The notes beneath the pieces are model-generated. The model saw only the letters and a program-made list of their open reading frames with translations, ran no database searches and was not told the origin of the DNA. 64,000 bases of DNA from Candidatus Nanoarchaeia archaeon (lineage in GTDB: Archaea > Nanobdellota > Nanobdellia > Woesearchaeales > JANQNE01): the NCBI GenBank assembly GCA_028279725.1, contig JANQNE010000010.1:1-64000 (forward strand), in the 5' to 3' direction. The translations under genes and the position numbers were made by a program. Shown here one piece after another: positions 3,761 to 20,326 of this stretch; positions within the stretch are counted from its first letter, which is position 1; each line of letters opens with the position of its first letter.

Positions 3761-4765
3761 ATGAAGAAAAAAAGAATTTTGATAATATCTTATGAAGGTA
3801 TTGGGGATCAAGTAGTCAGAAGACCATTCATGTTTGCAGCAAGAGAGACTTTCAGAGATGATGAATTAGTTTTAGTAACTCCAGAACATTACCATTTTAT
3901 TTTTCAAGACATTGGTTTTGACAAAATATTAAATATGGAAAAACCAATACAAAAAAGATTGCTCCCAAAAGAACACCTGAAGGAATTAATCTTGCAGAAC
4001 AAAGAGTTAAAGAAAAAATTTGATTTTGTATTTAATTTAACTATGACTGATTTAATGCAAGATTTCGATGACGTAGTAAAGGAATTAGATTATAATAAAC
4101 TATTTTTTTTAAAAACAAAACTAAGGAAAGCTGAGGGAGATTTTACTCCAACCGTCAATCCAAAAGAAAGATATATTTTTCAGTATTTCAAACTTTTAGA
4201 TTTTTTTTCAGTAGTTGAATTCAAAAGACCAAAATTAAAGATTTTAGAATGTCCTTTTTCCAAAGAGAACAAGGAACCAAACTCAAAATTAATCAATATA
4301 GGGATTTTTCCATATGTCAATCCAAATTCAACCCCCCCAGGAAAAGGTTGGGGTACAGAAAATTTTTCAAAATTAATGGAGTATTTGGCGCATCATATTA
4401 ATTGTAATTTATACATTATCGGGAACAGGAAAGAGGGGGGCATATCCTTCAAATACCCAAAAAACAAAGAAATAAATATATTACTGGGAGAAACAACAAT
4501 TAAAGACATGTTCAGTCTAATAAACAAATTAGATTTTATAATCTGCAATGATTCTGCTCCGCTCCATATAGCGGACGAAATAGAAAAGCCCGTTTTAGCT
4601 TTTTACCTTCCAGAACCACAAAGACTCTATCACCCCATAAGCAGAACAAGCAAAATCATGATATCAGAACCAGGAAATATAAATTCAATAAAATTAGCTG
4701 ATGTTATAGAAAAAACAAACGAAATAATAATAGAAGTAGAACATGAAAAACAAAATAGAAAATAA
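3761..4765 (+). CDS. Glycosyltransferase family 9-like (heptosyltransferase-type) protein
   Basis: A 334-residue protein with the GT-B layout of ADP-heptose:LPS heptosyltransferases (GT9). The N-terminal strand ILIISYEGIGDQVVRRP (6-22) matches the GT9 opening GDxxxxxP. The C-terminal half has the donor-site pattern PPGKGWGTENFSKL and then CNDSAPLHIADEIEKPVLAFY (D264, H269), corresponding to the family's DSGxxHxA motif. Members transfer sugars from nucleotide-activated donors, often to surface glycans. An archaeal partner could be an S-layer or lipid-linked glycan, but the acceptor is unknown. There is no clear Shine-Dalgarno before the ATG. The 3' end overlaps the next gene by 23 bases. Confidence 0.75.
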   Translation: MKKKRILIISYEGIGDQVVRRPFMFAARETFRDDELVLVTPEHYHFIFQDIGFDKILNMEKPIQKRLLPKEHLKELILQNKELKKKFDFVFNLTMTDLMQDFDDVVKELDYNKLFFLKTKLRKAEGDFTPTVNPKERYIFQYFKLLDFFSVVEFKRPKLKILECPFSKENKEPNSKLINIGIFPYVNPNSTPPGKGWGTENFSKLMEYLAHHINCNLYIIGNRKEGGISFKYPKNKEINILLGETTIKDMFSLINKLDFIICNDSAPLHIADEIEKPVLAFYLPEPQRLYHPISRTSKIMISEPGNINSIKLADVIEKTNEIIIEVEHEKQNRK

Positions 4766-5591
4766 AGTTGCAGATACAATAAATAAATACAGACTCTTCA
4801 CAAAAAGAGACAAGATCCTTGTAGCTGTATCCGGAGGAAAAGACTCAACCACAGCTCTTTATATTTTAAATAAACTCGGCTATAATGTAGAAGGCATCAC
4901 AGTTGACGCTTTAATCGGAAACTACACAAAACAAAATCTAGAAAACCTAAGATCTGTCTGCCAAAAACACAATATCAAACTTCACGAGATCTCATTCAGA
5001 GATGAATTTGGATATTCTCTCTGCTATCTTCGTTCTGTAATAAACTCAAAAGGCCACAACCTAAGATCATGTGCAATCTGCGGAGCTCTAAGACGTTATC
5101 TTCTTAATAAACATTCAAGAAAACTAAAAGCAAAATACCTTGTAACTGGCCATAATCTTGACGATGAAGCTCAAAACATAATGATGAATTTTCTAAGAAA
5201 CACATTAGAGACTTCAGCCAGGTTAGGCCTGGTAGCAGGATTATTAAAAAGCAAAAGATTTATTCCAAGAGTAAAGCCATTATATTTCTGCACAGAAAAA
5301 GAGATAACTCAATATTCAAAATTAATGAAATTCCCAGTAAAATATGGAGCCTGCCCATGCAGAACAGGCTCATTCAGAAACGAAGTCTCCATTATCTTAG
5401 ACAAACTAGAGAAAAAACAACCCAAAATAAAACACACAATCATCAAAAACTTCCTAAAGCAACTTCCAAAATTAAAAAAACAATTCAAATCAACAGACCA
5501 GCTAAAAAACTGCAGACACTGTGGAGAGCCATCAAAAGATGGAACTTGCCAGGCATGTAGAATCGTTAGTTTGATAAAGAAAAATGATTAA
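4743..5591 (+). CDS. PP-loop tRNA thiolation protein, TtuA/Ncs6 family
   Basis: A 282-residue PP-loop ATPase. SGGKDS (30-35) is the pyrophosphate loop. CAIC (C110, C113) together with a Cys in ACPCR (C204/C206) matches the iron–sulfur/active-site cysteines of TtuA and Ncs6/CTU1. TGHNLDDEAQ (135-144) is diagnostic for this group. The C-terminal zinc finger is C257-x2-C260…C269-x2-C272. These enzymes 2-thiolate tRNA uridine (U54 or wobble U34) using an activated sulfur carrier. The usual N-terminal zinc finger is absent: the protein starts only about 25 residues before the P-loop. It overlaps the glycosyltransferase gene upstream and the DUF483-like gene downstream (8 bases), so the three are probably co-transcribed. 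Confidence 0.85.
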   Translation: MKNKIENKVADTINKYRLFTKRDKILVAVSGGKDSTTALYILNKLGYNVEGITVDALIGNYTKQNLENLRSVCQKHNIKLHEISFRDEFGYSLCYLRSVINSKGHNLRSCAICGALRRYLLNKHSRKLKAKYLVTGHNLDDEAQNIMMNFLRNTLETSARLGLVAGLLKSKRFIPRVKPLYFCTEKEITQYSKLMKFPVKYGACPCRTGSFRNEVSIILDKLEKKQPKIKHTIIKNFLKQLPKLKKQFKSTDQLKNCRHCGEPSKDGTCQACRIVSLIKKND

Positions 5592-6429
5592 AAACAAAAA
5601 CATATTTGAAATTTTTAGTTCTAGAATTTCTTGTTTAGAGATAACTTATGTACTAGGAGGCATAAAACCCTGCTGCAGATTACTAGTACAAGATAAAAAA
5701 AAGAAAGAGTTGCAGAATTTTTGTAAAGAAAATGGATTATATGTTGAATTTTCAGATTATAAGGTATCTCGTATTCCGGACAATAACAAATTAACATTCT
5801 CAAATAGAATGAGAAGAATACCTTTAACGGCAGAAGAAGGGGAATGGGTGGTGTATATATCAAAATCAAAAGAGATAGCAGAACTAGCTAAACATTCAGA
5901 AAATATATTGGATCATGCAAAGTTTGGAGAATTATTAGGGTATCCTAAATGTTGTACTAATTTTTACATAAAGAATAGGGAGAAAGCCTTAGAAAATAAT
6001 GATGATTACAATTTGTTAATCCAACCAGATATAAAAAAACACCCATTCTACAACAACCACACCATTAGGTGTTTTGGTATTTCATTAATAAGTCATTTTC
6101 CTTGTTCGCATGACTGCAAACAATCTAAAAAAGTTGCAGAAAAAACCCTTCATTTTTTAAAAAAGGAAAATCCTGGATTTGCAGAGTTCTTTGAAGATGA
6201 ACTTAAGGCCTTGGTGGTATACACAGGAAATAATGGAGTTTTTTATTCTCCAAATTATAAAAAAGAAGGAAATATAATATTTTTCAATAGTCTAAAATCC
6301 ACAGTTGACAATGATATTTTTCACAAGCTAACAAAAGAAAGGAAAATCAAGATAAATCCATCAACCAATAATGTGAATAGTCAAGAATATCATCAATCTG
6401 ATATTATTTCGATATTTATGTTTGAATAA
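5584..6429 (+). CDS. DUF483-like Cys-rich protein
   Basis: A 281-residue soluble protein with no signal peptide. The middle contains GELLGYPKCCTNFY (C123, C124), followed later by FPCSHDCKQS. This GYPxCC … PCSxxC pattern is what I associate with the uncharacterised DUF483 family, known from archaea and some bacteria. The function is unknown. The conserved cysteines suggest metal or cluster binding, which is inference. It overlaps the TtuA-like gene by 8 bases and lies upstream of Rpp30 and the radical SAM locus. An alternative is an unrelated Cys-motif protein of the same operon. Confidence 0.5.
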   Translation: MIKNKNIFEIFSSRISCLEITYVLGGIKPCCRLLVQDKKKKELQNFCKENGLYVEFSDYKVSRIPDNNKLTFSNRMRRIPLTAEEGEWVVYISKSKEIAELAKHSENILDHAKFGELLGYPKCCTNFYIKNREKALENNDDYNLLIQPDIKKHPFYNNHTIRCFGISLISHFPCSHDCKQSKKVAEKTLHFLKKENPGFAEFFEDELKALVVYTGNNGVFYSPNYKKEGNIIFFNSLKSTVDNDIFHKLTKERKIKINPSTNNVNSQEYHQSDIISIFMFE

Positions 6430-6445
6430 TTGATCCAAGAAAACA

Positions 6446-6453
6446 TTTAAATA
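6446..6453 (+). promoter_or_regulatory. TATA box for rnp3
   Basis: TTTAAATA ends exactly 22 bases before the ATG at 6476. With a transcription start about 25 bases from the box, the mRNA would begin at or next to the start codon (leaderless). Confidence 0.6.
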
Positions 6454-6475
6454 AATAAGACAACCAATTAATAAA

Positions 6476-7036
6476 ATGCATACAGACTTTGTATTTCCAA
6501 AAGACAATGAAGAAAAATTCATAGAAATAGCATTAAAGTTAGGTTATTCTTCCTTGCATTTTATCTACGAACCAAAAAACTTCAAAAAATATAATTCAAA
6601 AAAGATCAAAATTTACTCAGGGATCATATCAAAAAATAAAATAAAAAATATTGATCCAGATTTTATAGTGACAAAAGCAGATGATTCAATTCGTCCAGTT
6701 CTAGAAAGGGGACAAGTAGATATAGCATTTGATTTTGAACAATCAACAAAAAAAGATTTTATCCACCACAGGAATTCAGGATTAAACCAAATATTATGCA
6801 AGATAATAAAGGATAATAATATAACCCTGGCATTTTCTTTTTCTTCAATCTTAAACTCAAAAAACCCACAATTATTGGGAAGAATAACACAGAACTTACA
6901 ATTAGCAAAAAAATATAGTATGAAGATAATTTTAGCTTCATTTACAAATAACCCTTATAGGATGAGCTCACCAAAAGATCTGGCTTCTTTATTGAAAATT
7001 CTAGGCAACGTGCCAAAGAACCCTGCAATTTATTAG
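6476..7036 (+). CDS. rnp3: Ribonuclease P protein component 3 (Rpp30)
   Basis: A 186-residue PHP-like TIM-barrel protein, slightly short for archaeal Rpp30. The most diagnostic stretch is HHRNSGLNQILCK (H97 onward), then LAFSFSSIL and the C-terminal RITQNLQLAKKYSMKIILAS … YRMSSPKDLASLLKILG. All of these are hallmarks of archaeal RNase P component 3. It supports cleavage of the 5' leader of pre-tRNA together with the RNase P RNA and Pop5. A TATA box 22 bases upstream and no ribosome-binding site suggest a leaderless transcript. The radical SAM gene follows after seven bases and may be on the same message. Confidence 0.9.
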   Translation: MHTDFVFPKDNEEKFIEIALKLGYSSLHFIYEPKNFKKYNSKKIKIYSGIISKNKIKNIDPDFIVTKADDSIRPVLERGQVDIAFDFEQSTKKDFIHHRNSGLNQILCKIIKDNNITLAFSFSSILNSKNPQLLGRITQNLQLAKKYSMKIILASFTNNPYRMSSPKDLASLLKILGNVPKNPAIY

Positions 7037-7043
7037 ATTTAAA

Positions 7044-7988
7044 ATGAAACACATAAATGCCATAAGGATACTACTTACTGAAAATTGTAATGGCAGTTGT
7101 TCTTTTTGCTTTAACAAAGATCTAAGGGAAAACAAAGATATGGATACCAATCAGGCAATTAAATTATTTGATAGATTAGCAATAGAAATTAAAAATTTAA
7201 AAATTATGGGGGGAGAACCCACAATTCATCCAGATTTTATTATGCTTTATGAACACACACAAAAAAGATTTAAATCTGTTTTTTTATTTACAAATGCACT
7301 CAACGATGTCATACTCAACATTAAGCCAAGAGAAGAAGACGCAATCACATACAATATAAGTTTCATAAATAAGAATTTCAATTTTAATAAAATTCTCCCA
7401 GACTATGATTTTGTAAGAAGTTTTGAGACTGTGGTGGGAACAAAAACAAATATTGATGATCTTCTATCAAAAATTAACTTCATAATAGGTAAATTTAATG
7501 AATTAAAAATAAAAAAAAGACCTAGGTTTAGCATAACCTTGAATTGCATGGAAAACATCTTCAAACATAAACAAATTTTAAATAGAAAATGGAGAAGATT
7601 AGTGGTCTCATTGAATGATATTGACCCAAAATTGGTTGATTTTGATCATTCAATCCCTGTCTGTTTTTGGACAAAAGAATCTATTGAACTATTCAAGAGA
7701 ACAGAATTACCAGACTCACTTTTTAGTACTTGCAGACGTGGGGATTATGGTTTAATAAACTCAGATTTTGAATTATTGTATTGTAACCAGCACCCGATAA
7801 AACTAGCCAACATCCTTGAATTATTAAACAAAAATTCATCAACTTTATTTTTTGATAAATTAAATACAATATTGTCCAAGGCATACATGGAAAAACTTAT
7901 TAAAAACCTAAACACCGAGGAATGTAAAAATTGCATGTATGCAATCACCCATTGCACAGGAGGGTGCTTCAAACACAAGTACCCATAA
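7044..7988 (+). CDS. Radical SAM protein with C-terminal Cys cluster (SPASM-like)
   Basis: A 314-residue radical SAM enzyme. C15-x3-C19-x2-C22 (CNGSCSFC) binds the SAM-cleaving 4Fe-4S cluster, and IMGGEPTIHPDF is the SAM-contacting GGEP motif. The C-terminal part has TCRRGDYGLINSDFELLYC and then CKNCMYAITHCTGGC, a twitch/SPASM-like auxiliary cluster region common in peptide-modifying enzymes. The substrate cannot be read from the sequence. It sits seven bases after rnp3 and within 3 kb of the His-rich putative precursor, so it may belong to the Hxs-like locus. Its central region is divergent. Confidence 0.8.
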   Translation: MKHINAIRILLTENCNGSCSFCFNKDLRENKDMDTNQAIKLFDRLAIEIKNLKIMGGEPTIHPDFIMLYEHTQKRFKSVFLFTNALNDVILNIKPREEDAITYNISFINKNFNFNKILPDYDFVRSFETVVGTKTNIDDLLSKINFIIGKFNELKIKKRPRFSITLNCMENIFKHKQILNRKWRRLVVSLNDIDPKLVDFDHSIPVCFWTKESIELFKRTELPDSLFSTCRRGDYGLINSDFELLYCNQHPIKLANILELLNKNSSTLFFDKLNTILSKAYMEKLIKNLNTEECKNCMYAITHCTGGCFKHKYP

Positions 7989-9673: not shown

Positions 9674-9681
9674 TTTATAAA
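9674..9681 (+). promoter_or_regulatory. TATA box for the His-X-Ser precursor gene
   Basis: TTTATAAA ends exactly 22 bases before the ATG at 9704, and there is no Shine-Dalgarno. This predicts a leaderless transcript. Confidence 0.6.
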
Positions 9682-9703: not shown

Positions 9704-10189
9704 ATGCAAAAAAAAATCCCACAACTCAAAAAAAAGATATCTGGGTTTTTATCTAATGAACAGGGAACAATCTCAAAAAAATCAATAATGAAATTAGGTT
9801 TAATCACTTCTCTTCTATCAACTTCTACAGAAGATGTATCTGGGGGATCTGAAGAGTGCCATAACAGTGACGGAACAAATTGTGATCACCATGAAAGTTC
9901 TTCAGTAACACTCTCAAGCAGCACATATAATTTAGTAGATGCTGGGAACCCACCATCTGCCCACGCCAGTGATTCTTGCTCAGGTACACATTCAAATTCT
10001 TGGGCTGATGATTGTAGTTGTCATGCCAATGCCTCCACAGCAGACCACGCCAGCGATTCGAGCGGACATCACACCAATGATCTGGAGGTTGCTAAAAAAG
10101 GTACAGGTATAAAAGCAACCCATGAACATAATGTGGCGCATGCTTCACAACTCACAGGTACACCTAGCTCTCATTGTAGTTTATCATAG
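9704..10189 (+). CDS. HxsA-like His/Ser/Cys-rich putative RiPP precursor
   Basis: A 161-residue protein of unusual composition. Residues 1-45 are a Lys-rich helical leader (KISGFLSNEQGTISKKSIMK then LGLITSLLST). The remainder is dominated by His, Ser, Asp, Ala and Cys. It contains six His-X-Ser triplets, at His53, 63, 87, 115, 146 and 157, plus near-matches such as HSN and HAN, and six cysteines (52, 60, 92, 104, 106, 158). Repeated His-X-Ser is the signature of HxsA proteins, which are proposed substrates of the HxsB/HxsC radical SAM maturases. HxsD-like and HxsB-like genes lie immediately downstream. It has its own promoter. The modification and the mature product are unknown. Metal binding by the His/Cys core is an alternative role. 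Confidence 0.7.
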   Translation: MQKKIPQLKKKISGFLSNEQGTISKKSIMKLGLITSLLSTSTEDVSGGSEECHNSDGTNCDHHESSSVTLSSSTYNLVDAGNPPSAHASDSCSGTHSNSWADDCSCHANASTADHASDSSGHHTNDLEVAKKGTGIKATHEHNVAHASQLTGTPSSHCSLS

Positions 10190-10231: not shown

Positions 10232-10687
10232 ATGGAAGATCTAAATAATCTTGGGAATCTAAAGATAAACAAAGCAGAAAATTACATATTTTTCTCTGTA
10301 AATCCATCAATATTTTCTTTAGAAGTAGTATATTCAGCAGCATATATTATGATAGACAAGGCATATATTTTTTTAGATGGGAATCCGAAAAGATCAATAG
10401 ATATTGAGATAAGAGCAAAGAAAGAAAATCAAGATCTAAAGAGATTAGCCTTGGAATTTAACAACGAACTAATCAATTATGCCAACTATAAACAACAAAA
10501 CAAGGAAAATAAAGAGATAAGGGAGATGATCCTACAAAGAGCTTTACAGACAAATTTAATCACTCCAGAATACACCGAAGGCAATATCAAGGATCCAAAA
10601 AACATCAAAGAGGCCTGGTCAGAAGATAAAAGACCAAAGAAGACCAAAAATGCAAATAAAAGAAAAACCAATAATAATCAAGCTTAA
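10232..10687 (+). CDS. hxsD: HxsD-like protein of the His-Xaa-Ser system
   Basis: About 151 residues. Residues 15-105 match the HxsD family as I remember it: a strand FFSVNPSIFSLEVVYSAAY, a Tyr/Leu-rich strand, an Ile/Glu strand, then RLALEFNNELINYANY and IREMILQRALQTN, which correspond to the family's EFxNELLNDYxLRE-type segment. HxsD is a small partner protein always found with HxsB and HxsC; its biochemical role is not established. The C-terminal ~40 residues are a Lys/Asn-rich low-complexity tail, and the last 38 bases overlap the next gene in another frame. No signal peptide is present, so it acts in the cytoplasm. Confidence 0.75.
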   Translation: MEDLNNLGNLKINKAENYIFFSVNPSIFSLEVVYSAAYIMIDKAYIFLDGNPKRSIDIEIRAKKENQDLKRLALEFNNELINYANYKQQNKENKEIREMILQRALQTNLITPEYTEGNIKDPKNIKEAWSEDKRPKKTKNANKRKTNNNQA

Positions 10688-10868
10688 TCCTTCTTTTTAT
10701 TCTAAAGGGGCAATATTACAGACTATTAAAGATTTTAGTTCTGTCTGCTCCTCTGATTTAGAGAAAAAAAGCAAATTTCTCATAACAATCAACCCAAAAA
10801 AAGGAATAGACAAAAATGAACTCGCACATGAATTCTGTAATTATTGTCTTGGTTTGATGAATCAGTAA
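10650..10868 (+). CDS. Short second HxsD-like protein
   Basis: A 72-residue protein starting inside the tail of the preceding HxsD-like gene. Its outline IIIKLNPSFYSKGAILQTIKDFSSVC … FLITINPKKGIDKNELAHEFCNYCLGLM parallels the HxsD core (strand–helix–strand, then EFxNYxLxL) without the C-terminal helix. I read it as a diverged HxsD paralogue that may pair with the longer one as a heterodimer, which is inference. Position and overlap imply co-transcription. Because the gene is short, an unrelated small protein cannot be excluded. Confidence 0.6.
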   Translation: MQIKEKPIIIKLNPSFYSKGAILQTIKDFSSVCSSDLEKKSKFLITINPKKGIDKNELAHEFCNYCLGLMNQ

Positions 10869-10936: not shown

Positions 10937-10944
10937 TTTATATT
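10937..10944 (+). promoter_or_regulatory. TATA box for the B12-type radical SAM gene
   Basis: TTTATATT lies 29 bases before the ATG at 10974. It overlaps the alternative TTG start at 10944, which argues against that start. Just upstream a small hairpin GTCTC-N6-GAGAC (10894-10909) follows a T-rich stretch and may help end the previous transcript. Confidence 0.45.
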
Positions 10945-10973
10945 TGCTGAAAAAACCTATCTCAGTTAAGATA

Positions 10974-12299
10974 ATGAAAAACATAACCTTATTTTGGCCA
11001 AATCTGATATTTAAAGAAAAAGGCAGAATCATCCCTTCTTTATTTTTAGCAAAATACTACGGGTTGCTGAAAGATGAATTCAATGTCTCCTGTGTAGAGA
11101 CATTTATGAGGGGGGGAATAAACAAAGCAGACTTTCTCCAAAACAAAAAAGAAATATCCAGAAAATTAGAATCAGACATAAGAAAGATAGAATCAACAAA
11201 TCCAGACATACTTTGCATTAGTAGCTGGACCTTGCTAAACTTGCCATACATATTGGAATTTTCAAGACACTTCAAAAAAAGAAACAAAGATGTAAAAATT
11301 ATCTTGGGAGGGGATGGTCCAACAAATTCACCGAAAAATCTTTCTACTTTAACAAAACATATAGATTTTTTTATAGTTGGCTGCGGAGAGCATGCAGTCT
11401 GCAAATTAATTAAAGATATAGTTAATAAGAAAAATATAGGCCAGAACATAATCCACATGAGGAATAGATTCCCCCCAATAAGTACAATTATCCCGGATTA
11501 TTCTGGAACCTTAGATGAGAACAGACATAAGATAATCCCTTTAGAAGGATCAACAGGGTGCACAAACAACTGCACATTTTGTTCCTCACAGAAGTGGATC
11601 AAAGGTCCCTATAATAAAGGAGTTGATACAATCATCAAAGAATTAAAACAATACATATCCAATTATAATATTAATAGATTTTTCTTTATAGACAATAATT
11701 TTACAGGCAACCCAAAGAACGCAGAGTTATTTTGTAGAATGCTTAAAAAAAACAAATTAGATATAAATTGGAGCTGCAGCTCAAGAACAGACACAATATC
11801 TCCTAGATTATTGAACTTGATGCATGATTCAGGATGCTATTCAATTTTCTATGGTATAGAAAGTCTAAATAAAAATACACTAAAATTAACAAAAAAAACA
11901 AAAGACCCTTCAAGATATATAAAGAAATCAAAAGAGATGATTAATTATTCAAGAGATCTCCTAGCTACTAAAGTGGAAGGAATTATTGGTTTTCCATGGG
12001 AGTCAAAAAAAGATATGTTAGAAACTGTGAGTTTTTTCAGGAATAACTGGAGCGATATTGCGTATATCCATACATTAATTGCAATCCCCGGATCAAAAAT
12101 ATGGAGATCATATTTAAATAAAGAATTAGAATTATTTGGATCAAAGATCCTCCACAATAATTTATTCTTTGAAAAATACAAGAACTTACCTTGGCTGGTT
12201 CCAACAGCCTGGAGAGTAAAAAACAAAAGAATGAATAATAAGGATCTTACTGATTTTGTCGAACACAACCAGGAAGTAAAAACCAAAGAATTTATATAA
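10974..12299 (+). CDS. B12-binding-type radical SAM enzyme
   Basis: About 441 residues. The N-terminal ~150 residues have the Rossmann-like outline of cobalamin-binding domains (LFWPN…IPSLFLAKYYG, then DILCISSWTLLNLPYI and KIILGGDGPTNSP, FFIVGCGEHA). The lower ligand motif DxHxxG is not visible, which is common in radical SAM relatives. The radical SAM core starts with C196-x3-C200-x2-C203 (CTNNCTFC) and continues through FFFIDNNFTGN, YGIESLNKNTL and EGIIGFPWES. Such enzymes often methylate unactivated carbons or modify peptides. Position between hxsD and hxsB suggests it tailors the His-rich precursor, which is inference. The TATA box supports the ATG at 10974 rather than the upstream TTG. 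Confidence 0.75.
   Translation: MKNITLFWPNLIFKEKGRIIPSLFLAKYYGLLKDEFNVSCVETFMRGGINKADFLQNKKEISRKLESDIRKIESTNPDILCISSWTLLNLPYILEFSRHFKKRNKDVKIILGGDGPTNSPKNLSTLTKHIDFFIVGCGEHAVCKLIKDIVNKKNIGQNIIHMRNRFPPISTIIPDYSGTLDENRHKIIPLEGSTGCTNNCTFCSSQKWIKGPYNKGVDTIIKELKQYISNYNINRFFFIDNNFTGNPKNAELFCRMLKKNKLDINWSCSSRTDTISPRLLNLMHDSGCYSIFYGIESLNKNTLKLTKKTKDPSRYIKKSKEMINYSRDLLATKVEGIIGFPWESKKDMLETVSFFRNNWSDIAYIHTLIAIPGSKIWRSYLNKELELFGSKILHNNLFFEKYKNLPWLVPTAWRVKNKRMNNKDLTDFVEHNQEVKTKEFI
12291..12298 (+). promoter_or_regulatory. TATA box for hxsB inside the end of the upstream gene
   Basis: TTTATATA, located in the last codons of the previous gene, ends exactly 22 bases before the hxsB ATG at 12321. There is no ribosome-binding site, so a leaderless start is predicted. 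Confidence 0.55.
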
Positions 12300-12320: not shown

Positions 12321-13730
12321 ATGAAACCACTAGATTTTAAGGGTAAAGACTATATATTAAACAATATTAGATTTAAGACATTAAGGGGGAAATATCTATT
12401 AACCACAGACACAGGGGCATGGATATTATTAAATAAGAGCGCATATTTAAATTTAAAAAACAATAAAATAAAAAAGCCATTGTTCAATCTTCTGGAAGAA
12501 AAAGGCATAATAATAACCAAAAATAATATTGAAAAAGTAGTTTCTGATCAAAGGGAGAGGCTAGATTTTTTATTTAGAGGAGCATCATTGCATATAATTC
12601 TCCCAACATTAAGATGCAACCATAAATGTGTTTATTGCCACAGCGCAGCGCAGGATGCAGACAAAAAAAAGTTTGATATGGATAAAAAAACTATAGACAA
12701 GACCTTAGATTTTATTTTTCAAACACCTGCAAAAGCAATAACTATTGAGTTTCAAGGTGGGGATGCGTTATTAAGAGCAGATTCATTCAAATACACAGTC
12801 CAAAAGGCCAAAAAGCTAAATAAAAAATTCAACAAGGATGTTTATTTTGCTTTAGTAACAAATCTTACGATAATGGATGAAAAAATAATGGATTTCTTGA
12901 AAAAAGAAAAAGTTAGGATATGCACATCTTTGGATGGGCCAAAAAAAATACATGATTTGAATAGGATATATACAGGCCACACATCATCATATGATGCGGT
13001 AACAAAAAATTTAAGACTACTCAAAAAAAACAAAATCCCTGTGTCTACACTAATGGTAACAACAAAACACAGTTTACCTCATTGGAAAGGAATAATTGAT
13101 GAATATGCCAAGTGGGGGTTCACTAGCATACAGCTAAAATATCTCAATAAATTAGGATTTGCAAAGAACACATGGGGGGAGATTGGTTACACTGTAGAAG
13201 AGTTTCTTGTTTTTTGGAAGAAAGCAGCAGACTACATATTAGAATTAAACAAAAAAGGAACTTATATTGAGGAGAGATATATCAAAATAATATTGATGAA
13301 AATCTTAAGTAAGAAGGACCCTGCATTTTTAGATTTGAGAAGTCCCTGCGGCATGGTTATTGGTCAGATGGCATACAACCATAATGGGGATATCTATTCA
13401 TGTGATGAAGGAAGAAACTTTGAATTATTTAAGTTGGGCAATGTAAAAAAAGACACATACAAAGGTATTTTATCATCGGAGAAATCACAACAATTAATTT
13501 CATCTTCAATAAATGATATACTGGTATGTGATAATTGTATCTACAAGCCATATTGCGGTCATTGTCCTGTGATGAATTATGCCGAGGAAGGAAATTTAAT
13601 CCCAAAATTACCTTCGAATTCAAAATGCAGATATCATAAATTTGCATTTGATTATGTTTTTGAAAAATTACTATTTGATAAGGAAGCAAGAAAAATATTT
13701 TTTAGTTGGATGAAGAAGAAAACAAAATGA
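12321..13730 (+). CDS. hxsB: HxsB-family His-Xaa-Ser radical SAM maturase
   Basis: A 469-residue protein, the usual HxsB length. Residues 10-80 form the family's N-terminal domain (FKTLRGKYLLTTDTGAWILL). The radical SAM cluster is C99-x3-C103-x2-C106 (CNHKCVYC). EFQGGDALL replaces the common GGEP motif, and VTNLTIMDEK and ICTSLDGPKKIHDLNR follow as in HxsB. The C-terminus has RSPCGMVIGQMAYNHNGDIYSC and YKPYCGHCPVMNYAEEG, a SPASM-type region for auxiliary iron–sulfur clusters, ending in CRYHKFAFDYVF. HxsB acts with HxsC and HxsD on His-X-Ser repeat proteins; the reaction is not known to me. It is the best-supported member of the locus. The next gene starts in its stop codon (ATGA). Confidence 0.88.
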   Translation: MKPLDFKGKDYILNNIRFKTLRGKYLLTTDTGAWILLNKSAYLNLKNNKIKKPLFNLLEEKGIIITKNNIEKVVSDQRERLDFLFRGASLHIILPTLRCNHKCVYCHSAAQDADKKKFDMDKKTIDKTLDFIFQTPAKAITIEFQGGDALLRADSFKYTVQKAKKLNKKFNKDVYFALVTNLTIMDEKIMDFLKKEKVRICTSLDGPKKIHDLNRIYTGHTSSYDAVTKNLRLLKKNKIPVSTLMVTTKHSLPHWKGIIDEYAKWGFTSIQLKYLNKLGFAKNTWGEIGYTVEEFLVFWKKAADYILELNKKGTYIEERYIKIILMKILSKKDPAFLDLRSPCGMVIGQMAYNHNGDIYSCDEGRNFELFKLGNVKKDTYKGILSSEKSQQLISSSINDILVCDNCIYKPYCGHCPVMNYAEEGNLIPKLPSNSKCRYHKFAFDYVFEKLLFDKEARKIFFSWMKKKTK

Positions 13731-15643
13731 CATATCTAGATTTAAAGTTAGGTTATGGTTGCAACAACAATTGCTTACATTGCGTAATCGCAGATCAAAG
13801 GGATACATGCAGATCAAAGGGTGTGGATACAGATAGGTCAACAGAAGAATGTAAAAAAGAATTGGTAGATAGTAAATCCAGAGGTGCAACAGAAGTAACT
13901 TTCACAGGGGGAGAACCAACAATAAGAGAAGACATATTTGAACTTATATATTTTGCAAAAAACCTAGGATATTCAATAAACATGCAGACAAATGGAAGGA
14001 TGTTTTATTATGAAGAGTTTACAAAAGCCATCTCAAAAAATTTGATTAGATCATTTGTAATAGCATTACACGGACCAAATGAAAAGACACATGATAAGAT
14101 AACAGAAGCAAAGGGAAGCTTCAAGCAGACTGTAGAGGGAATAAAAAATTTAATTTCATTAAAACAAACAGTTAGAGGAAAGATGGTCCTCTCAAAAATA
14201 AACTACAGACAACTTAAAGAAACAATAACACTCATGATAGAATTAGGCATTAAATCTATCTTTGTTGCATTCCCTCACGCACAAGGAAACGCAAGAAAAA
14301 ATTTTGATGTTATTGTCCCAAAATACTCTGAAATAATCAACTATGTGAAAGATTCAATAAAATTTTGTAAGAAAAAAGGCATAGAGATTTACTTTGAGGC
14401 TATTCCTTTTTGCTTTATGACAGGATATGAAGATCATGTATCAGAATTAAGAGACATCGGAATAAACTATAAAGAATTAAAACAGCTTGGTGAAAATAAG
14501 AAGAATTGGGCAGAAATAAGAAAAAAAATAAAAAGAAAATTCCCACAATGTTCATTTTGTGACTACACTCAATTATGTGAAGGCCCTTGGATGGAATATC
14601 CTGCGGCATTTGGAAATAAAGAATTTAGACCAGTCTACAATAAAAAGATAGATGAGATAAAAATAGAGCTCACTTATGGCTGCAATAGCCATTGTTATTT
14701 CTGTCAAAATAAGACAATTCCCACAGAAAAAAAACAACTAACAACAAAACAAATATTAAACCTACTAGATGATATAAAGAGGAATGACATAAAAAAAGTA
14801 AGATTCACAGGAGGAGAACCAACACTAAGAAAAGACCTCTTAGAGATCTTAGCATACGCCAAGAAACTAGGATTAATTGTAAAGCTTAACACAAATGGAA
14901 GATTTAACATTGATTATGCAAAGAAACTATCAAATCACATAGATGTGATACTTTTTTCTGTTCATGGAGACAATAAAAAATCAAACAAACAGATAACAAA
15001 AACACAGGATTTTGATAACAAAATTAAAATAATAAAATTTTTCTCAAGATCCAAGGTTCACACAGCATGCAACACCATAATGAACAAAGAAACGGTAAAA
15101 AATTTAAACAATTTTTTAAGATTAATGGACAAATTAAAGGTCCAAGATTGGTTTTTTTCACCCCAAGTACCAGTTCCTGGGGAAAAGAACTATTACTTAA
15201 AAAATAAAGAGATAGAGCTTATAGTGGAAAAGTTAATCAAGTATAACAAAAAACAAAAAACAACATATTCCATAGGAAAATGTGCAACAATTCCATTCTG
15301 CTCTTGCGATCCTAGAAAGATTTTAGATCTATATTCAGGAAAAGAAGCCGGGGGAAAGTTCTGTGGCCCAAACAACAGCCTAGTAGTTTCTCCAAAAGGA
15401 GATGTTAGGTTTTGTTACTCAATAAACAAAATGCTTGGGAATACACTAAAAAATAGCCTAAAAGATATCTTAGGCAAAAAACTACTAAACAAAAATCTAA
15501 GCCCTGCAGAATGCAAAGGTTGTTTGATGGAATTTATATGCAGAGGGGGCTGCAGGTTCACTGCAGAATCAATAAATGGAAATTTAACTTCATCACATCC
15601 ATTATCACAAAAAGAGAGATATAAAGATTTATTATTTCAATAA
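13727..15643 (+). CDS. Tandem radical SAM protein (two radical SAM modules)
   Basis: A 638-residue protein carrying two complete radical SAM modules. Module 1 has C12-x3-C16-x2-C19 (CNNNCLHC), FTGGEPTIRED and ALHGPNEKTHD. Module 2 has C319-x3-C323-x2-C326 (CNSHCYFC), FTGGEPTLRKD and SVHGDNKKSN. Module 1 ends with its own Cys group (CSFCDYTQLC) and module 2 with a SPASM-like CGPNNS…FC…CKGCLMEFICRGGC. Similarity of the halves points to an internal duplication and fusion. Neither half has the N-terminal domain of canonical HxsC. The ATG at 13727 overlaps the hxsB stop by four bases; the upstream TTG at 13706 is less likely. It is probably translated with hxsB and modifies the same substrate. Confidence 0.82.
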   Translation: MTYLDLKLGYGCNNNCLHCVIADQRDTCRSKGVDTDRSTEECKKELVDSKSRGATEVTFTGGEPTIREDIFELIYFAKNLGYSINMQTNGRMFYYEEFTKAISKNLIRSFVIALHGPNEKTHDKITEAKGSFKQTVEGIKNLISLKQTVRGKMVLSKINYRQLKETITLMIELGIKSIFVAFPHAQGNARKNFDVIVPKYSEIINYVKDSIKFCKKKGIEIYFEAIPFCFMTGYEDHVSELRDIGINYKELKQLGENKKNWAEIRKKIKRKFPQCSFCDYTQLCEGPWMEYPAAFGNKEFRPVYNKKIDEIKIELTYGCNSHCYFCQNKTIPTEKKQLTTKQILNLLDDIKRNDIKKVRFTGGEPTLRKDLLEILAYAKKLGLIVKLNTNGRFNIDYAKKLSNHIDVILFSVHGDNKKSNKQITKTQDFDNKIKIIKFFSRSKVHTACNTIMNKETVKNLNNFLRLMDKLKVQDWFFSPQVPVPGEKNYYLKNKEIELIVEKLIKYNKKQKTTYSIGKCATIPFCSCDPRKILDLYSGKEAGGKFCGPNNSLVVSPKGDVRFCYSINKMLGNTLKNSLKDILGKKLLNKNLSPAECKGCLMEFICRGGCRFTAESINGNLTSSHPLSQKERYKDLLFQ

Positions 15644-15644
15644 A

Positions 15645-17762
15645 ATGCAAAATGACCCGTCGATAGGACCAAAAACATTTCATCTACAATATCATATAAC
15701 TGATAACTGCAATCTAGATTGCAGCCATTGTTATGTGGGCCATAGAAGAAAAAAAGAACTAAGCACAGAACAGGCTTTAAAATTGATAGACAGGTACGCA
15801 GATATGTTAGATTTCTGGAAAATATCAGATAAAAAAAGCAAGATAACTTTCACAGGAGGAGAACCTTTACTTAGAAAGGATATTTTCAAGCTCATAAAGA
15901 GATGCAGACAACATGGCATAACTTCTGGTTTAATGACCAACGGAACAACCCTATCGGAAAACATAATAGAGAAATTAAAGGATTCCGGGTTAAAAAACAT
16001 ACAGCTGAGTTTAGAAGGGCTAAAAGATACAAATGATTTAATCAGAGGTGCAGGGGTTTTTGATTCCATAAGACAGGCAATAAAATTACTTAAAAAACAC
16101 AGATTCAAGGTAATAATCTCAACAACCATCCACAAGGGGAATTACAGATCTCTTTCAAGACTTATAGAATTTTGTCTTAAAGAGAAAGTAGATTCCGTAG
16201 GCTTTAGGAGATTAGTTCCATTAGGCAATGCGATAGAGATAAAGGACCAACTATTATCACCTCTGGAATTGAGAGACACATATTCAAAATTATCAGATTA
16301 CAAAACTAAATTAGAAAGTAAATTATCTGTTTCTCTTTGTTGTGAGGGATCACTCTTAGCAATAGAAGACAAAGATCACTTTAATCATTCACATTGTTCT
16401 GCAGGGATATCTAGCTACACAATACTCCCGGACGGAGAGATCATACCTTGCGCGACACTCCCAATACATCTAGGAAATGTATTATCTGATAATTTAATCT
16501 GTCTGTGGTACAGTTCAAGAGAATTATGGAAGTTAAGGAATATAAATAATTTAGATAAAAGATGCAGTAGCTGTCACACCATAAAAACATGCAAAGGGGG
16601 GGCCAAGTGTATAGCACATTCTTATTTTGGAGGCATATCTCATCCAGACCCTCAGTGCTGGTCGCTTTACAAGGAGCTTCCAAAGAAAAAAATAAAACTT
16701 CCAAATAAAAAAACCAATAAGCTAAAAATTGACCCTTCTCTTTATACATTATCCAATGGAAGATTAAAAAGACAAACTGAAGGAATTATAGTATCTGAAG
16801 AATTAATAAAACAAGATATAGATAAGGTGTTATCTAATAAATCAAAATTAGAAAAAATAAAGAAAATATTGTCGGAGAAATATGATCTAAAAGATATCTC
16901 TTCTATAAGGAAATTACATGAACATAATGCATGCATAATCGAAACAAGAACAAAGAAATATTTATTTAAAGAAAGGGAGGGGAAGATTGAACTAAATAAC
17001 TATGTTTTAGAATTTCTAAAAGGAGTAAAGATACCAAAAATAATAAAGACAGATAGAAACGCATGTTTAGATTATAGAGGAAAGAATTACATACTTTCAG
17101 AATACATTGAAAGCGAAAGAAAATACACTTTTGATGATTTGGAAAAGGTTACAGATATCTTAATCACATTACATCAAAATTCCAGAGATTTACCAAAAAC
17201 AAGAAAAGATATATTCTTTGCGATAAAGGAAAAATTAAAATATATATCTAGAGAGATAACTAAATCTCCAAACATAGATAAAGCTAAGAAAAATGTGTTA
17301 TTAAAACATACCGACGACTTAGAAAAAAAATTGAATAAAAAAACAATACATGGGATGGAACATTTTATCATACATGGGGATTTCAAGAAGACGAACTTAT
17401 TATTCTCAAAAAATGAAATTTATTTATGTGATTTTGACAGAACCAGACATCACCTAAAAATCTATGATTTAGCAATAGCTATTTGTTCGTTGTGCAGAAA
17501 AGATCCAGGTAACATACTGGAATTCGAACAACTAATAAGATTATTTGAGTTGTATTCAAAAAAAATAAACATAAACAAAACAGAGAGAGAACACATTTTA
17601 GATTTCTTAAGATTTTATATCCTGGAGCAGATAACATCAATCAACAACTTATCAAAACAGAAGAAGTTATCTATAATACTAAATAACTTAAGCCTGCTCA
17701 ACCAGATAGATAAAAATGAAGATAATTTGAGATTATTATTCAGGACAATAAATAACTCATAG
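15645..17762 (+). CDS. Radical SAM/SPASM–APH-type kinase fusion
   Basis: A 705-residue two-part protein. Residues 1-350 are a radical SAM/SPASM enzyme: C22-x3-C26-x2-C29 (CNLDCSHC), FTGGEPLLRKD, SLEGLKDTND and a C-terminal CSSCHTIKTCKGGAKC cluster region. After a linker, residues ~400-700 look like an aminoglycoside-phosphotransferase/choline-kinase fold. HGDFKKTN (H577-G-D579 … N584) is the Brenner catalytic loop and DFD (596-598) binds metal. The radical SAM half resembles peptide maturases, and the kinase half could phosphorylate the peptide or a small molecule. I know of no standard family with this fusion. It begins one base after the previous stop (TAA-a-ATG). The 3' end overlaps the convergent prepilin peptidase gene by six bases. 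Confidence 0.82.
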   Translation: MQNDPSIGPKTFHLQYHITDNCNLDCSHCYVGHRRKKELSTEQALKLIDRYADMLDFWKISDKKSKITFTGGEPLLRKDIFKLIKRCRQHGITSGLMTNGTTLSENIIEKLKDSGLKNIQLSLEGLKDTNDLIRGAGVFDSIRQAIKLLKKHRFKVIISTTIHKGNYRSLSRLIEFCLKEKVDSVGFRRLVPLGNAIEIKDQLLSPLELRDTYSKLSDYKTKLESKLSVSLCCEGSLLAIEDKDHFNHSHCSAGISSYTILPDGEIIPCATLPIHLGNVLSDNLICLWYSSRELWKLRNINNLDKRCSSCHTIKTCKGGAKCIAHSYFGGISHPDPQCWSLYKELPKKKIKLPNKKTNKLKIDPSLYTLSNGRLKRQTEGIIVSEELIKQDIDKVLSNKSKLEKIKKILSEKYDLKDISSIRKLHEHNACIIETRTKKYLFKEREGKIELNNYVLEFLKGVKIPKIIKTDRNACLDYRGKNYILSEYIESERKYTFDDLEKVTDILITLHQNSRDLPKTRKDIFFAIKEKLKYISREITKSPNIDKAKKNVLLKHTDDLEKKLNKKTIHGMEHFIIHGDFKKTNLLFSKNEIYLCDFDRTRHHLKIYDLAIAICSLCRKDPGNILEFEQLIRLFELYSKKININKTEREHILDFLRFYILEQITSINNLSKQKKLSIILNNLSLLNQIDKNEDNLRLLFRTINNS

Positions 17763-18800
17763 TAGGTTCAAGCTCCCCTTCAATATTAAAGTAAGTAAAA
17801 CTCCCAGAAACAAAAATAACGCAAAAGGAACCTCTTGCTGTACAAAAACATATTTGTTCTTTATTTTCTTGCGTTTGTACAGATCCTTTATTTTTGCGAT
17901 GTCTTCTTCAGTAAGACCCTCCACCTTTAAATTATTTACATAATAACCTTTCCTGAGGTTTATCCTCACTTTTTCTATGTACTTTTTCTCAACAAGAACC
18001 ATCCCAGGTTTAAGTTTCCTTACATTGATCTTAGTTTGGAATAATGAACCAAGATCATTTATCATAAATATAAATAACCCATAGGCTGTAGTCATTAATA
18101 TGAACTCCCTAAGGAACCCAGCAGTCAGAATATATTCTCTGTTAAAGAACACCCTGGACAGGGACAGAACAACCATGATTAAGTTTATTTCATTAGGCCA
18201 GATTTTTCTTAATAAGTGTTTTATTGCCATTATTGCAAACATATTCAGTACTATATTTGTCCTTACGCCAAAATATACAAACAAATAGTGGGTTATCCAT
18301 GATATGCTGAATATTGTCAGCAGATAATTTCCAATTCTCTTTAAGTTAAAAGAATTCTTGATAACTTCAACTTTTTGCTCTTTGCTTGTCTTTACAAGCA
18401 AATAGATAACAAGAACAACGAACAGAGGAACAAAGGTATTTATCAATATCCCTAATGGATGAAAACTTGTAGAATTTTTTTGATAAATTGAGAGTGGAAT
18501 CAAAGAAACATATGCAGTAAATAGTTTGGCATCTCCTGCAGACCACAGACCAAACATATAAAGAAAGACCCCGATAACAAAACTGAAAAAAACAAATGTG
18601 CCTAATTTTACCCCATATTCTACCTCAGTGATCCCCAAGGAGAAAAGAATAACATGCATCACAAGTGATACTATCAGCGCAGTTATGATCCATTTATTTC
18701 TTATCTTCTTAGTTTTGATATCTTGATAACTAGTCACAATGCCTAACAATACAATAAATGGAAACATAAACCACAACAGATTCATGGCTAGACAATACAT
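17757..18800 (-). CDS. A24 family prepilin/preflagellin peptidase
   Basis: A 347-residue polytopic membrane protein. The first catalytic Asp lies in SYQDIKTKKIRNKWI (D27), the usual position after the first transmembrane helix. The second is in LWSAGDAKLF (D90), the GxGD-type motif of aspartic class III signal peptidases. Six or more hydrophobic helices are seen, plus a soluble segment at about 250-320 before a last helix. The enzyme cleaves class III signal peptides after the charged residue, and the window holds eighteen such substrates, so it is the likely processing enzyme. Two ATGs are possible (18800 and 18785). The first lies 29 bases from a TATA box shared with the divergent archaeosortase gene. 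Confidence 0.85.
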   Translation of the reverse strand: MYCLAMNLLWFMFPFIVLLGIVTSYQDIKTKKIRNKWIITALIVSLVMHVILFSLGITEVEYGVKLGTFVFFSFVIGVFLYMFGLWSAGDAKLFTAYVSLIPLSIYQKNSTSFHPLGILINTFVPLFVVLVIYLLVKTSKEQKVEVIKNSFNLKRIGNYLLTIFSISWITHYLFVYFGVRTNIVLNMFAIMAIKHLLRKIWPNEINLIMVVLSLSRVFFNREYILTAGFLREFILMTTAYGLFIFMINDLGSLFQTKINVRKLKPGMVLVEKKYIEKVRINLRKGYYVNNLKVEGLTEEDIAKIKDLYKRKKIKNKYVFVQQEVPFALFLFLGVLLTLILKGSLNLL

Positions 18801-18859: not shown

Positions 18860-20326
18860 ATGAAAAAGATGGGTTTAATTAAAAAATACTTGTTATTCAC
18901 ATTCTCTTCATTAATGTCAACTTCTTTGCTTATGTTTTTTTCCATCAGATCAAAAACCACATACGGATTTTCTTCTATCTTTTACTTACAAAAACCGATA
19001 ATAATATTTATTGCTTTTATAGGGGTTGTATTTTTATTAATCCGACATAAGACTAAAACCACAAACAGAACAGTAAACGCCCCCTTGTTGTTGATTTCTT
19101 TATTACTGTTCTCTCTTTCATTCTATATTTATGGAGACATAAATAAAGTCTATAATGAAGGAGTATCAATAAAATCCAGTCAACTGATAGATTCTCCCGG
19201 AAAAATAGATCTGGATAGTTCATCCCTTCTCTCTATTCCTTTATTGACAGGAATCAGACAATCTTATGATTCTTTTATTTTTGGAGAGGGAAAAATAAAG
19301 AAAATATTAGATATGGGGGAGATCCAGGAAGAAACTATTTTGACTTTTCACACATTATGGCAAGATGCGCCCTTATCGAAAGACCCAGATTTAATTTTCC
19401 AATCAATGGACGACAACCAATTAAATAAAGATCTAAAAGTATTCTTATCAATAAACAACAGATCCTTTGATATCTCAGATTCTTACAAAGATCTTCCAGA
19501 AGATAAAGGTAAATGGATAAGCATAAAGATTCCAGGAAATAACTTTTTAGATGGAAAAAATGAAATAATAATCTCAACAAAGAATAACTCAGACCTCTTA
19601 AGGTTTTCCGGACAGGTGGTATTCATGGAAGGAAATACATTCAAATTTGATAATGAGGGTTTCTGGGAAACAGAAATCACAGAGATGGCATTGTTCTTAA
19701 ATCGGGAAAATCCATTTTGGTTTTCTTTATTATTCAAATTTTCTTTCATATTGAAGATAGCCGCACTTATTCTATTTTTATTTGCTTTTTTCAACAAAAA
19801 AATAATAACAAAAATAATAAAAAACAATAAGAAAGAAATCATATACTCCATACTGGCTTTATTGATCCTATATTACCTGTCTTTATTTATACAATCCCAA
19901 TGGCAGTTCCTTTCAAGATTTGTTGCCTATTCTATCTATTTTTTACTCAAGATTTCATTCTTGAATCCATCAGTGAATATTAATGATTTGTCTGCCCCAT
20001 TAGTTGGTCTAAATAATTTCTCTGTAGAGATAGCAGATGTTTGTTCTGGAGTAGAAAGCCTGATCTATTTTTTAGTAGCTTATTCTTTGCTTTTGTTGAT
20101 CCATTGGAAACACATAAACTTCAATAAAGCATTAGTTCTTTTCATCCCCGGAATCATTGGCGCAGCTCTGTTGAACATCTTTAGAATTTATTTTTTAATC
20201 TTGATCGGTTCTTTCTTTTCAAAACAGTTAGCATTAAACTTATTTCATTCTGTTTCTGGAATGCTTATTTTCATAATATATTTCATAATATTCTGGCCTT
20301 TAGCTTTAAAATACATAGAAAAATAA
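18860..20326 (+). CDS. Archaeosortase/exosortase family protein
   Basis: A 488-residue multi-pass membrane protein. The C-terminal ~190 residues carry the exosortase/archaeosortase catalytic triad: Cys395 in ADVCSGVESL, Arg442 in NIFRIYF, and His463 in NLFHSVSGM. All lie near membrane helices as in the family. The N-terminal half has two or three helices and an extracytoplasmic domain (about 90-280), longer than in typical family members. Archaeosortases cut C-terminal PEF/PGF-type sorting signals and transfer the protein to an anchor. The convergent next gene encodes a protein with just such a C-terminus, with no spacer between the two stop codons, so the pair is probably dedicated. The promoter suggests a leaderless mRNA. 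Confidence 0.85.
   Translation: MKKMGLIKKYLLFTFSSLMSTSLLMFFSIRSKTTYGFSSIFYLQKPIIIFIAFIGVVFLLIRHKTKTTNRTVNAPLLLISLLLFSLSFYIYGDINKVYNEGVSIKSSQLIDSPGKIDLDSSSLLSIPLLTGIRQSYDSFIFGEGKIKKILDMGEIQEETILTFHTLWQDAPLSKDPDLIFQSMDDNQLNKDLKVFLSINNRSFDISDSYKDLPEDKGKWISIKIPGNNFLDGKNEIIISTKNNSDLLRFSGQVVFMEGNTFKFDNEGFWETEITEMALFLNRENPFWFSLLFKFSFILKIAALILFLFAFFNKKIITKIIKNNKKEIIYSILALLILYYLSLFIQSQWQFLSRFVAYSIYFLLKISFLNPSVNINDLSAPLVGLNNFSVEIADVCSGVESLIYFLVAYSLLLLIHWKHINFNKALVLFIPGIIGAALLNIFRIYFLILIGSFFSKQLALNLFHSVSGMLIFIIYFIIFWPLALKYIEK

Follow-up and report, generated by a model that had tools for sequence, protein, structure and literature searches.

Gene content of the locus

The window (the whole 64,000-nucleotide stretch of DNA that was analyzed) contains a putative peptide precursor gene at 9704–10189, followed on the same strand by genes of an Hxs system and by further radical SAM genes; a gene for an A24 prepilin-peptidase-like protein converges with the end of this cluster. 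The features are as follows.

7044–7988, + strand: upstream radical SAM gene (PF04055; CxxxCxxC), candidate member of the cluster
9674–9680, + strand: TATA-like box, 30 nt 5′ of the precursor ATG
9704–10189, + strand: putative Hxs-type precursor (ATG start; 161 aa; single copy in a search of its own genome)
9704–9835, + strand: predicted leader, residues 1–44 (Lys-rich helix, E-x-G-x-I-S-K motif, Gly32 and a hydrophobic stretch; from profile, alignment and column counts)
9836–10066, + strand: variable Cys/His/Ser linker (four of the six HxS, five of the six Cys; low-confidence model)
10067–10138, + strand: predicted beta-hairpin, residues 122–145, containing HTNDLEVAKKGTGIKATHEH (residues 123–142; from sequence patterns and AlphaFold)
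10232–10687, + strand: HxsD (TIGR03976, 61.9 bits, cut-off 50; the listed frame opens at TTG 10229, and a TATA-like box precedes ATG 10232)
10650–10868, + strand: HxsD-like protein (NF038315, 62.2 bits, cut-off 41)
10944–12299, + strand: B12-binding radical SAM protein (PF04055, PF02310; CxxxCxxC; start uncertain)
12321–13730, + strand: HxsB radical SAM/SPASM maturase (TIGR03978, 448.5 bits, cut-off 370)
13727–15643, + strand: HxsC-like radical SAM domain fused to a second radical SAM/SPASM domain (two CxxxCxxC)
15645–17762, + strand: radical SAM/SPASM and APH-type kinase fusion (PF04055, PF13186, PF01636; HGDFKKTN and DFD intact)
17757–18800, − strand: A24 prepilin-peptidase-like protein (PF01478 and PF06819 over cut-off)

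HxsB and HxsD thus score over their curated cut-offs, and the third protein of the system does not: the product of 13727–15643 reaches 185.6 bits with HxsC4 (cut-off 500) and 145.3 bits with HxsC (cut-off 267.9), so that its putative HxsC-like label is one of position and similarity only. A homologue of its first domain stands alone at another locus (L037), where it follows HxsB. The CxxxCxxC motif is kept in all six radical SAM domains of the five genes, including the gene at 7044, and the cluster's HxsB scores below cut-off with the PapB and DynA models. A PDB search with the HxsD model (mean pLDDT 76.9, above 90 in the core) gave no match at 0.001; the best match was to Rpb11-type RNA polymerase subunits (E = 0.017), which leaves the idea that HxsD is a winged-helix leader-binding domain unsupported. 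HxsD and its HxsD-like neighbor might form a heterodimer. Homologues of the kinase fusion at three loci (L047, L048 and L054) match only its first ∼350 residues; the motifs make a Ser/Thr kinase step in the pathway conceivable.

HxsD and HxsB likewise have TATA-like boxes at −30, and these positions suggest separate leaderless transcripts for the precursor, HxsD and HxsB. Of 34 HxsB loci (L032–L065), 11 have an RNase P p30-like gene and four a PP-loop ATPase gene, and both are also present in the window at 4743–7036; these shared neighbors suggest an old chromosomal position. Close downstream of the cluster are genes for an exosortase/archaeosortase-family protein (18860–20326; 49.2 bits against a cut-off of 23) and for a Cys-rich protein of 2798 aa (21346–29742).

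The precursor reading frame

The original prediction described 9704–10189 as a precursor with six irregularly spaced His-X-Ser triplets and six Cys, and both counts and the irregular spacing are borne out in the 161-aa frame. The HxS lie at residues 53, 63, 87, 115, 146 and 157 (HNS, HES, HAS, HAS, HAS and HCS) and the Cys at 52, 60, 92, 104, 106 and 158; His totals 13. The accompanying description of a core made up almost wholly of His, Ser, Asp, Ala and Cys was too strong, since residues 46–161 contain 25 Ser, 13 His, 12 Ala, 10 Thr, 9 Gly, 9 Asp, 8 Asn and 6 Cys, with Thr, Gly and Asn roughly matching Asp or Cys in abundance.

In such a composition the triplets are barely above chance: six HxS compare with a mean of 2.76 in composition shuffles (P ∼0.03), and His-x-x-x-Ser also occurs six times (P ∼0.03), so the HxS spacing is not special. 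The count of HxS was therefore rejected as evidence for a precursor. A pattern picked post hoc, [DA]HAS, occurs three times in the protein and in none of 20,000 shuffles. The tandem His-Xaa-Ser repeats that define HxsA were not found in it, the six HxS being scattered. Its status as a precursor comes instead from the homology of its leader, with minor support from the TATA-like box at −30.

The leader

A leader profile built from 11 relatives, with 9704–10189 excluded, recovers this protein at E = 4.1e-14; this is the only search that excludes it, the later profile having been rebuilt from 24 precursors that include it. HxsB is present over cut-off in 32 of the 371 genomes of the phylum, and a search for short HxS frames beside archaeal HxsB with alignment of their leaders, which the original prediction had proposed as a check, found a common leader together with HxS repeats near HxsB in many of those 32 genomes. 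A wide scan gave at least 555 stretches that encode an HxsB relative, from which 79 loci were kept; with the profile that includes 9704–10189, 23 of the 34 archaeal loci and 28 of the 45 bacterial-titled ones have the leader next to HxsB, the two groups being assigned from record titles (L160 and L168 are possibly misbinned). Patescibacteria, Elusimicrobia and Omnitrophota are among the bacterial-titled loci with a leader. Judged by its sequence, the leader is part of a known cross-domain precursor family of DPANN archaea and bacteria. Among the 371 genomes, treated as independent, HxsB occurs in 25 of the 30 leader genomes vs 10 of the 341 others (Fisher P = 4.7e-26); these counts use leaders at E ≤1e-9, and 41 of the 371 genomes have one at E 0.01.

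In 20 hand-picked precursors P6, F15, G21, K25 and G32 are near-invariant. AlphaFold places helices at residues 8–18 (pLDDT about 60) and 25–40 (about 76–82), modest support from the model for the helical leader originally predicted. The hydrophobic stretch of 9704–10189 is the fifth weakest measured (1.45 vs a median of 2.03). Gly precedes this stretch in 48 of the 49 archaeal leaders that have a residue there; the residue at −2 to it is Leu31 in this precursor and mostly L, I, A, T or V in archaeal leaders.

Of the 30 leader genomes, five fell outside the count of HxsB carriers. One (G183) has a divergent HxsB-like protein in the normal arrangement, and in two (G213 and G286) the contigs with the leader are short. 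In G174 no HxsB match was found in the 20 kb read, with one weak family match elsewhere in the genome, and in G104, which is 96% complete, the HxsB family search gave no match at all. Both G104 and G174 have an HxsD-like domain fused to the leader and an A24 gene ∼7–9 kb away, and they fit a leader recognized not only by radical SAM proteins but also by factors for export or processing. Homologues in genomes that lack the radical SAM cluster would weigh against the original prediction, and G104 goes part of the way, with leader and A24 and no HxsB-family match; its core is different, and for this reason it does not remove the case for modification of 9704–10189.

The leader is also found on proteins of other kinds. 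An HxsD-like domain is fused to it in L140 (13392–15341, − strand) and L141 (14061–14642, − strand), and a Hint (intein-like) domain follows it in L140 (over the Pfam cut-off) and weakly in L138 (2835–3518, − strand). In L172 (6850–7422, + strand) a precursor with an HxS tandem continues into a Peptidase_S74 chaperone domain (E = 3.6e-12), a domain of fibre proteins, and the protein of L272 (7973–8572) resembles it by eye. Long leader-bearing proteins of L163 (3977–5368), L182 (3311–4825), L191 (9676–11241) and L193 (4104–5741) share a C-terminus like CPFxxVWNGxxYxLENNxLP, a type found in both archaeal and bacterial-titled records; the three of these that were scanned (L163, L182 and L193) have no Pfam match over cut-off.

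A predicted hairpin element in the core

The AlphaFold model of the precursor, made from an alignment of 20 hand-picked precursor rows (A4), is poor overall (mean pLDDT 60, pTM 0.28), and most of residues 47–115 are of low confidence. Within it, strands 122–132 and 135–145 pair in a hairpin with pLDDT 82–84 over residues 121–140; this hairpin and the second helix are the only parts of the model that appear locally credible. In the same 20 rows Asn125 never varies and His123 and His140 hardly do, figures that are biased by the omission of several precursors without the element (for example L051, L059 and L063).

Two patterns drawn by eye from 78 distinct leader-bearing precursors were first counted in those same precursors: the loose form HxNx[LIMVF] is present in 33 of the 78 vs 5.3 by shuffling, and the strict form HxNx[LIVM]x[LIVM]x(5,20)HxH in 15 vs 0.10 expected. 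One of the 78 (from G081, L044) was added by hand, its leader being too weak for the profile. In an independent set of 18 new precursors (one of them a 33-residue fragment), taken from 22 previously unused genomes of the order, the strict form is present in five vs 0.013 expected and the loose form in ten vs 1.04. The strict pattern is absent from 63 of the 78, and the precursors of L051, L059 and L063 have the hairpin pattern in no form tested. On these patterns, the element is common rather than universal.

In a tree of 114 HxsB sequences the cluster's HxsB falls in an 11-member clade with support of 0.995; branches inside it are weak (0.22–0.80) up to a ten-member node (0.96). Precursors were recovered for nine of the 11 members, those of L157 and L160 yielding none, and they are 124–258 aa long with 4–11 Cys and 0–7 HxS. 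The L160 record is titled Halothermothrix, and the presence of its HxsB inside this archaeal clade points to transfer or misbinning. Seven of the nine, namely 9704–10189 and the precursors of G014, G081, G155, G192, G494 and G495, have the strict hairpin; that of G399 has the loose form only, and that of G466 has neither form, with a similar stretch that lacks the first His. HxS is absent from the G494 and G495 precursors and occurs once in those of G155 and G399, four times in G466 and seven times in G192. Since two of the nine lack HxS and seven have the strict hairpin, HxS is dispensable in the clade and the hairpin is mostly kept. The original prediction, in giving weight to the triplets, was probably wrong on this point; the hairpin is the likeliest target of modification.

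The associated A24 gene

In 21 of the 34 HxsB loci (L032–L065) the gene directly before HxsD, in the same orientation, is a homologue of this A24 gene. With the 371 genomes treated as independent, this type of A24 (E ≤1.5e-9) is present in 29 of the 30 leader genomes (E ≤1e-9) vs 10 of the 341 others (P = 1.6e-33), and in 31 of the 35 HxsB genomes vs 8 of the 336 others (P = 2e-33), the 35 comprising 32 genomes with HxsB above its cut-off and three that score below (G134, G026 and, truncated at a contig end, G118). The sole leader genome without this A24 (G268) has an A24 fragment near a contig end, and G005, scored as lacking A24, has a PF01478 match ∼1.7 kb from HxsB. Among later loci, 21 of the 22 with HxsB have A24; ten of their precursors had been counted previously. 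The catalytic Asp27 is kept in 62 of 64 A24 proteins and Asp90 in all 64.

This linked gene is an additional one. A separate second A24 is present in 21 of 22 Hxs or leader genomes checked (all except G222), and five of five control genomes without an HxsB-family match have a single A24. That the linked A24 is its genome's only prepilin peptidase was rejected, another being present at G000:C1:145828. In archaeal loci, some of which are cut by contig ends, A24 accompanies 22 of the 23 with a leader vs 3 of the 11 without (P = 7e-5); in bacterial-titled loci no link between A24 and leader was found (4 of 28 with a leader, 5 of 17 without; P = 0.95). From this result, and from G069 and G091, which have HxsB and one ordinary A24, the idea that A24 is a feature of every Hxs locus was rejected. 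T2SSE ATPases (PF00437) were uninformative as an associated marker, being present in 30 of the 30 genomes asked.

The A24 protein is weakly EppA-like (29.9 bits, cut-off 450). As described in the accessible part of one article, archaeal prepilin peptidases need a charged residue at −2 and Gly, Ala or Ser at −1 (PMC4371748). The precursor has the −1 residue of such a class III signal peptide in Gly32 and, in Leu31, no charged residue at −2, so that cleavage at this site is speculative, and signal peptidase I might act instead.

Interpretation

On balance, it is probable that 9704–10189 encodes the precursor of an archaeal Hxs system of the HxsB/HxsC/HxsD type, with a core that lacks tandem HxS and whose hairpin is the main target of modification, a leader that takes the protein to the membrane and cleavage by the A24 peptidase. 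Homology of the leader, the identity of the neighboring genes, conservation of the hairpin sequence and co-occurrence with A24 are the observations behind this reading, from which we infer the acting enzyme, the site of its action, the cleavage and the export. The Lys-rich helix and the E-x-G-x-I-S-K motif would probably be read by maturation proteins, and the hydrophobic stretch after Gly32 would bring the precursor to the membrane. The hairpin (HxNxLxV...THxH) would be altered by HxsB and/or the HxsC-like enzyme, probably as their main target, with the Cys/His/Ser linker and its HxS triplets as the variable part, and the extra A24 peptidase would probably cut within the leader, releasing or displaying the product outside the cell. 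Of the original proposal that several radical SAM enzymes mature a leader–core precursor, the division into leader and core and the several radical SAM neighbors, HxsB included, are thus in place, and these enzymes may mature the precursor.

The HxS triplets and Cys could themselves be the radical SAM target sites, as is presumed for tandem HxsA, with the irregular spacing representing a degenerate repeat. Long HxS tandems in many archaeal and bacterial precursors with the same leader beside HxsB agree with this, as do the three [DA]HAS of this precursor and the HxS-rich clade members of G192 and G466; yet HxS in 9704–10189 is near composition, and the HxS-free and single-HxS precursors belong to the same HxsB clade, so we consider this explanation improbable. 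It also seems unlikely that leader, HxsD and A24 are an export and display route for surface proteins in which the precursor has a structural role and radical SAM enzymes take part only in some lineages. Such a route would account for G104 and G174, where the DNA read shows leader, HxsD-like domain and A24 but no HxsB, for the Peptidase_S74 end of the L172 precursor and for the closer tie of the leader to A24 (29 of 30) than to HxsB (25 of 30), but HxsB, HxsD and precursor adjoin in most loci read, and bacterial-titled loci retain leader and HxsB without A24.

Some of the same residues would suit a secreted metal-binding protein that needs no covalent modification: there are 13 His and 6 Cys, and His123, Asn125, His140 and His142 lie on the paired strands of the modeled hairpin. 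This would leave the link to HxsB in both archaea and bacteria unexplained, and the Cys count varies from 4 to 11 among nine relatives; we regard it as very doubtful. A combined route in DPANN archaea is possible and is put forward tentatively, in which maturation of an exported His/Asn beta-hairpin protein is shared between a radical SAM complex and a second, dedicated peptidase of the prepilin type, the HxS repeats are optional and the leader serves primarily as a signal for export and processing, able to function in the absence of radical SAM enzymes.

Returning to the Hxs precursor reading, the protein is probably exported and the neighboring radical enzymes may remodel it; because the hairpin is kept in most close relatives while HxS come and go, the hairpin is the part of interest for modification. 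If it is the substrate, it offers a short, expressible target for learning how HxsB acts, as opposed to long repeats that are hard to analyze. Small archaea of this kind are thought to live attached to other cells, and a link in them between a prepilin-type peptidase and a radical SAM peptide system would bring together the fields of surface appendages and modified peptides.

Comparison with known systems

The Hxs names reportedly go back to Haft and Basu in 2011. No described HxsB product or chemistry was found in the open literature, including the accessible part of an article that cites Haft and Basu 2011 (PMC9062424), which is weak evidence of absence. Searches found no literature joining prepilin peptidase, radical SAM, RiPP and archaea, and none on radical SAM RiPP in Woesearchaeota; the accessible part of one article places radical SAM RiPP clusters in DPANN among other groups and makes no mention there of Hxs (PMC12144867).

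With the radical SAM/SPASM RiPP precursors (ranthipeptide, sactipeptide and cyclophane) the locus shares a leader–core precursor beside SPASM enzymes, but HxsB is a family of its own. The linked A24 with its conserved catalytic Asp and the Gly before a hydrophobic stretch recall archaeal prepilins and EppA/PibD/FlaK; unlike prepilins, the precursor has no charged −2 residue and a long Lys-rich extension before the site, and its leader is presumably also read by radical SAM proteins.

The closest likeness is to HxsA3 and HxsA4 (NF038309 and NF038313), in the leader and in the neighboring HxsB, HxsD and HxsD-like genes. In NCBIfam comparisons 9704–10189 scores 23.3 bits with HxsA3 (cut-off 65) over residues 5–70, and none of 19 potential-precursor relatives scored reaches that cut-off; L163 matches HxsA3 positions 2–81, so that this profile may already hold part of the hairpin. 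Relatives that share the leader pass the HxsA4 cut-off of 55 (L022 at 66.2, L184 at 89.2 and L199 at 64.1 bits), and for this reason 9704–10189 belongs to a known peptide system in variant form rather than to the new precursor class first proposed for it. What separates it from HxsA3 and HxsA4 is the lack of an HxS tandem, a long Cys-bearing linker, the archaeal A24 gene and the extra radical SAM and kinase fusions; the hairpin that recurs among precursors and the additional A24 gene of leader genomes are new here.
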